Shown here in pieces: positions 7,799 to 8,542 of a DNA stretch of 32,180 nt; the first letter of the stretch is position 1; each line of letters starts with the position of its first letter. The translations under genes and the position numbers were made by a program. The notes beneath the pieces are model-generated. The model had not been told where the DNA came from. It did not search any database and was given only the letters and a program-made list of their open reading frames with translations. Source of the DNA: Gammaproteobacteria bacterium (GTDB taxonomy: Bacteria; Pseudomonadota; Gammaproteobacteria; Enterobacterales; Aeromonadaceae); assembly GCA_018222825.1 (NCBI GenBank), contig JAAEZO010000015.1, positions 1 to 32,180 of the forward strand, given 5' to 3'.

Positions 7799-7873
7799 CT
7801 TGTTCTCCTGACTGGTTTTTTACCCGGTTTCACGGAATCAACGAATACTATAGTCGGGTCGGGAAAGACTGCA

Positions 7874-7919
7874 CCGGTCAATTAAATACTGTTTATTTAA
7901 ACAGTATTTAATTGACCGG
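7874..7919. repeat. 46-bp near-perfect palindrome (22-bp arms, TT centre)
   Basis: CCGGTCAATTAAATACTGTTTA-TT-TAAACAGTATTTAATTGACCGG; arms are exact reverse complements by direct reading. Confidence 0.97.
7889..7904 (+). promoter_or_regulatory. LexA (SOS) box 1, at the centre of the palindrome
   Basis: CTGT-TTATTTAA-ACAG matches CTGT-N8-ACAG. Confidence 0.9.
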
Positions 7920-7940
7920 CATACCGGCTAGCATTACTGT
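7912..7940 (+). promoter_or_regulatory. Predicted sigma70 promoter for sulA-like gene
   Basis: TTGACC (7912-7917), 17-bp spacer, TACTGT (7935-7940); -10 overlaps LexA box 2. Confidence 0.75.
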
Positions 7941-7952
7941 ATATAAAAACAG
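7937..7952 (+). promoter_or_regulatory. LexA (SOS) box 2
   Basis: CTGT-ATATAAAA-ACAG matches CTGT-N8-ACAG; embedded in TACTGTATATAAAAACAGTA. Confidence 0.93.
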
Positions 7953-7975: not shown

Positions 7976-8542
7976 ATGGCCACCCTCTTGTTATCGCGCG
8001 AACAGTTATATCGTGGGCAGTTTTTTTCATCCCCGACTCAGGAACAATCTGAGCAGAAACAAACAGACAATGCCACCATGCGTATTGCGCACTGGAGTCG
8101 TGCACAGCAGGCGCGGCTGCTGGCCAGCCTGGCCGTCATCAGCCGGCAAAACCGGGGATGGATACTGATTGCCAATGCACCGGCGCCGTTATCACGACAG
8201 GCGCTGGTTGATGCCGGCGTCAATCCGGCACGGGTAATAGAGGTAAGAAAGGCATCCGGGCTTCTGCTGCAACAGGCCATGGCCTGCACCGGCATTGCGG
8301 CCCTGGTGTGCTGGCAGCCAAAAGGTGGGACCTTGCCCTCACAGGGTCACCGGGGCCAAAGCGTTTTTATCATCACGCCGACCGGCAGGCTCCCCACTCT
8401 GGTACCGACACGATGTGCCGCCGGCACTGTCATGATGGATGCTTCGCCCAACCAGCCCGGCATCACCCGATACCGGAAACTCGTGACCGGGGACATAGGG
8501 TGCCGAGGGATAACTCGAGGATACTGCGGGTCGATTCGGTGA
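7976..8542 (+). CDS. sulA: SulA-like SOS cell-division inhibitor
   Basis: Two LexA boxes directly upstream; RIAHWSRAQQARLLASLAVISRQNRGWILIANAPAPLSRQALVDAGVNPARVIEV resembles the RecA/SulA fold of SulA ([29 protein letters not shown]). C-terminal ~45 aa not recognisable. Confidence 0.72.
   Translation: MATLLLSREQLYRGQFFSSPTQEQSEQKQTDNATMRIAHWSRAQQARLLASLAVISRQNRGWILIANAPAPLSRQALVDAGVNPARVIEVRKASGLLLQQAMACTGIAALVCWQPKGGTLPSQGHRGQSVFIITPTGRLPTLVPTRCAAGTVMMDASPNQPGITRYRKLVTGDIGCRGITRGYCGSIR

Follow-up and report, generated by a model that had tools for sequence, protein, structure and literature searches.

Why should a LexA box in front of a small SOS-type gene lie at the centre of a perfect palindrome of 46 bp, when the LexA dyad accounts for only part of that symmetry? 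The question is raised by a stretch of 32,180 nucleotides from a marine bacterium, called the window here. A sequence-only reading of this DNA had described an SOS promoter with two LexA boxes, the first of them on the dyad of the palindrome, and had offered four explanations for the surplus symmetry: extrusion of a cruciform, masking of the -35, binding of a second regulator, or a relic of template-switch correction of a quasipalindrome. We compared the locus with its counterparts across the genus and with the remainder of the host genome, and conclude that the promoter and the palindrome probably have separate explanations.

The geometry proposed for the palindrome is correct. It spans 46 bp (7874-7919), its two arms of 22 nt each (7874-7895 and 7898-7919) are 100% complementary around a central TT, and LexA box 1 sits on the dyad. 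The 20-bp LexA consensus covers the inner 10 positions on each side and leaves 13 outer pairs per arm, of which 12 were counted in the comparisons below, so that the symmetry does extend well past the LexA dyad, as had been claimed. Within 452 kb of contigs from the host genome, taken as the background for inverted repeats, the palindrome exceeds in length every other perfect inverted repeat whose spacer is at most 6; the runners-up have arms of 17 bp, and many of the other close inverted repeats resemble terminators. A terminator reading of the palindrome itself was rejected, its stem having no adjoining T-run and lying upstream of both predicted start sites. Among 20 LexA-like CTGT-N8-ACAG sites examined in the host genome, long outer symmetry is found at this site alone (15 paired bases past the 16-mer, the next best site having 6). 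The palindrome core has no exact match in the viral contigs searched, and the sole match in a plasmid search was a stretch of 31 bp surrounding the box, on a plasmid of Pseudoalteromonas. The features of the region are collected in Table 1.

Table 1. Features of the divergent DUF4250/sulA-like region, with positions numbered along the window.
Feature	Position	Strand	Remarks
DUF4250 gene, 65 aa	7601-7798	-	Pfam PF14056, E 9.6e-20
Putative DUF4250 -10, TATAGT	7847-7852	-	Outside the palindrome
Left outer arm	7874-7888		Derived, as judged from relatives; reverse complement of 7905-7919
LexA box 1, CTGTTTATTTAAACAG	7889-7904		Palindrome centre, ~50 bp upstream of the predicted transcription start; consensus or one mismatch in 22/22 genus loci
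Right outer arm	7905-7919	+	Ancestral, as judged from relatives; holds the sulA -35
Predicted -35, TTGACC	7912-7917	+	In the right arm
Predicted -10, TACTGT	7935-7940	+	17 bp past the -35
LexA box 2, CTGTATATAAAAACAG	7937-7952		Overlaps the -10; 22/22 genus loci, with one mismatch in locus L019
sulA-like gene, 188 aa	7976-8542	+	Product of the SOS-type promoter; Pfam matches sub-threshold

The promoter layout put forward earlier, with TTGACC, a 17-bp spacer and a TACTGT that runs into box 2, was found exactly where it had been placed, and its assignment as an SOS-type promoter with two LexA boxes is borne out by the genus. The sulA-like gene is present in 22 of 23 genus genomes (Oceanisphaera and relatives), and the loci were oriented before comparison. 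All 22 loci that carry the gene keep two LexA-type boxes 48-50 bp apart, their CTGT and ACAG halves exact or with one mismatch, and a TTGA(C/T)-type -35 between them. This -35 reads TTGACC or TTGATC in 21 of the 22 loci and TTGACG in locus L023, at an about constant distance from box 1. In a second genus of the family, four genomes carry a distant homologue with only one consensus box in front of it. Both boxes have the CTGT-N8-ACAG form and box 2 overlaps the -10, as is characteristic of SOS genes in gammaproteobacteria; box 2 would cover the -10 and the start region, and box 1 would lie just upstream of the -35, where contacts of an UP element with alpha-CTD would be made. Four putative elements are backed by conservation: box 1, the -35, the -10 together with box 2, and the TATAGT/TATACT -10 of DUF4250. 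Both the architecture and its conservation are direct readings of the aligned loci, by which the divergent region is an ordinary promoter of the LexA-repressed type with two operators kept across the genus, at which LexA would be expected to bind.

For LexA itself, no match to PF01726 was obtained in the host assembly, which is 84.8% complete in 330 contigs. LexA is encoded in all 22 other genus genomes, where lexA is preceded by its own CTGT-N8-ACAG box, and the host lexA most likely sits in the missing 15% of the assembly. The host genome holds a further pair of LexA-like boxes (locus L082, 16103-16138, on contig G000:C143), spaced 20 bp start to start, which recalls the closely paired boxes of the colicin type.

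We call the downstream gene SulA-like on the strength of a weak profile match, the size of the gene and the presence of the SOS boxes. The Pfam SulA model matches the window protein with E 0.13 (13.0 bits) and its orthologues, which include those of Oceanisphaera arctica and O. litoralis, with E down to 0.011 (up to 16.3 bits); the matches run along residues 46-113 and all fall below the cut-off of 23.1. The named orthologues place the window in Oceanisphaera or a close relative. The ImuA model, which is related to SulA, matches the window protein with E 1.7e-4, far under that model's own cut-off, and a search of solved structures with the SulA-like protein returned nothing related. In the host, in G019 and in O. 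arctica, the protein carries a C-terminal extension of ~50 residues ending in GxTRGYCGSIR (8380-8542 in the window; L003 and L004); many other members of the genus have SulA-like proteins that end near ...LH or ...KH, with a C-terminal histidine. Lon recognises the C-terminal histidine of E. coli SulA. The extension may have deleted a degradation signal, and codon-position differences suggest that it is weakly constrained.

DUF4250 is the divergent neighbour of the sulA-like gene in 21 of the 22 loci. The motif ACTATAG upstream of it is kept in the window, in three relatives (G019, G015, G012) and, with changed flanks, in G007, and TATACT stands at the equivalent place in the others. The kept TATAGT, present also in relatives that have no left arm, is the likelier -10 of this gene. 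The earlier reading had pointed to a second TTGACC that the left arm creates on the opposite strand, facing DUF4250. This hexamer exists, but because the nearest -10 (TATAGT, minus strand, 7852-7847) is 23 bp distant, it is unlikely to be part of a promoter, and no credible DUF4250 promoter results; a new divergent promoter was rejected on account of this spacer. In loci L014 and L019, LexA box 1 lies just 12-13 bp from the DUF4250 start codon. Given this proximity and the position of box 1 where an UP element would be, bidirectional repression is possible: box 1 may act in both directions, and DUF4250 may be SOS-controlled too.

It had been laid down beforehand that arms with a function should be kept in relatives, and it is here that the two sides of the palindrome part. 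The boxes and the -35 are kept, whereas the left outer arm drifts freely. Outer pairing is complete in the window (12/12) and reaches 0-6 of 12 pairs in the 21 relatives, a mean rate of 0.254 that equals chance; the outer arms are thus neither conserved nor covarying, and the host locus is the one of 22 that has the outer symmetry. On the right, the window (TTTAATTGACCGG) and O. arctica (G015; TTTTATTGACCGG) share 12 of 13 outer bases and differ by 1 edit in 20. The left arm, by comparison, is absent from all 21 relatives, which match the window at 2-6 of 13 positions, and this side is 8-10 edits away from every close relative. The left arm of the window is 2 bases longer than the corresponding sequence of G019 and O. 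arctica and is the reverse complement of the window's own right arm; the ancestral-type left flank of the relatives resembles ...ACTGCCTC.TTAAAA..TACTG. When the five closest genomes are aligned, ACTATAG..CGG..CG..ACTGC proves well kept right up to where the left arm begins; with such a flank just left of the replaced tract, the change amounts to a cluster confined to this spot, which alters the length by 2 bp. The core of box 1 has shifted toward symmetry as well: a left-half base that is G in O. arctica and A in G019 has become T in the window and so agrees with the right half. The comparison shows the paired arms to be unique to the host, the right arm to be ancestral and the left arm to be new. 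The ideas of a cruciform, of -35 masking and of a second regulator are without comparative support, the outer symmetry being absent from the 21 relatives.

The sole one of the four explanations to gain support is the template-switch relic, the left arm being derived and the change one-sided. With a probability of roughly 0.77, we regard the region as an ordinary two-operator LexA promoter whose long palindrome is the product of a template-switch quasipalindrome correction confined to the host and of little regulatory effect. In the host lineage alone, box 1 and its flanks, a short quasipalindrome, would have made replication pause; the new strand would have folded back on itself, copied the right arm already made and then rejoined the template. 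A single event of this kind would put the right arm's mirror image in place of ~14-20 bp on the left, so that a short, imperfect palindrome became a perfect one of 46 bp, although its exact switch points and the strand involved are what we infer. Template switching predicts that the derived arm is the exact reverse complement of the ancestral arm, as observed, and that an imperfect inverted repeat was there beforehand. In relatives the LexA dyad and its flanks provide such a repeat: the equivalent site of O. arctica, which is ancestral-like, can fold into a 10-bp hairpin (-7.1 kcal/mol, against -21.2 for the window) and so supplies the presumed substrate, an imperfect repeat, that the mechanism needs. 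Nascent-strand templating is known from E. coli reporters to make imperfect inverted repeats perfect (PMC7202029), and single template-switch events that make perfect stems have been inferred across taxa including bacteria (PMC8794818).

The replication mechanism is thus probably a template switch, and because one event would have mirrored the right arm onto the left, the extra symmetry would be a mutational footprint. Apart from making box 1 slightly more symmetric, the extra arms most likely have little regulatory effect. The evidence for the event is a comparison of species in which the closest relative has a SulA 72% identical to the window protein and the palindrome occurs in one draft assembly. 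The arms are perfect despite this appreciable divergence of the lineages, which implies a late event, unless renewed correction or selection has preserved them.

Selection is central to the first alternative, in which the arms, once gained, are now kept as a species-specific functional palindrome that binds a second regulator, extrudes a cruciform or masks the -35 and so tightens control of the SulA-like inhibitor. Arms without any decay, the location of the -35 within them and a predicted fold of -21.2 kcal/mol, against -2.6 for shuffled sequences, are what such a palindrome should show. Nevertheless, we consider it unlikely, as it is missing from 21/21 relatives whose promoters keep the remaining architecture. 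In addition, the 46-mer occurs once in the host genome and none of the other LexA-like boxes examined is similarly extended; a recurring site that a second regulator might use was therefore not seen.

It is quite improbable that the left arm was created by the library or the assembly, whether by a chimera that folded back during amplification or by a mistake of the assembler at the inverted repeat. The palindrome is known from one draft assembly of 330 contigs, and no independent copy was found, but it lies within a 32-kb contig with the normal gene order of the genus on both sides, and close inverted repeats show no excess in this assembly (53 per Mb versus 47 per Mb in a relative whose genome is complete). 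Chimeras of the fold-back type as a rule duplicate longer stretches, without a return to the original template after ~20 bp. Very improbable, too, is an extended form of the template-switch reading, by which LexA operators, as short natural dyads at promoters that are active while replication is stalled, seed template switches, and the -35 half-site mirrored in this host now provides a further level of SOS control that is functional and peculiar to the species. Independent point mutations with drift, or an old shared palindrome lost elsewhere, are scarcely credible: O. arctica, it is true, has 6 of the 12 outer positions paired already, but outer pairing in the relatives runs at the chance rate, at which (0.25, 12 positions) 12/12 has a probability of ~7e-8 per operator, and an old palindrome would have to have disappeared from 21 genomes and survived in one, which is not parsimonious.

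The palindrome is a clear natural example of an apparent single mutational event rewriting a regulatory region into a long palindrome, and a warning that symmetry should not be taken for function without recourse to relatives. The genus-wide promoter with two boxes in front of the sulA-like gene offers a variation on SOS control that is modest and can be tested.

Set against known systems, the locus resembles the LexA-repressed sulA of gammaproteobacteria in its TACTGTATATAAAAACAGTA-type box over the -10, its CTGT-N8-ACAG form (consensus quoted in PMC8072944) and its division-inhibitor-like gene, but it differs in the second LexA box, kept across the genus ~48 bp upstream and above the -35. 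The part of the literature searched holds no direct precedent for a sulA promoter with paired LexA boxes. The promoter would be occupied by two LexA dimers, as at other SOS genes that have more than one LexA box, namely lexA, recN and the colicin genes with their overlapping boxes (PMC2994835, PMC8072944); unlike the latter, the boxes are 48-50 bp apart here and flank the -35. Lastly, the palindrome shares with quasipalindrome template-switch mutations the rewriting of one arm as the reverse complement of the other, by which the repeat is made perfect (PMC7202029, PMC8794818). In contrast to the mutations observed in the laboratory, it is a natural case, deduced from a comparison of species, and would have been seeded by a repressor operator.
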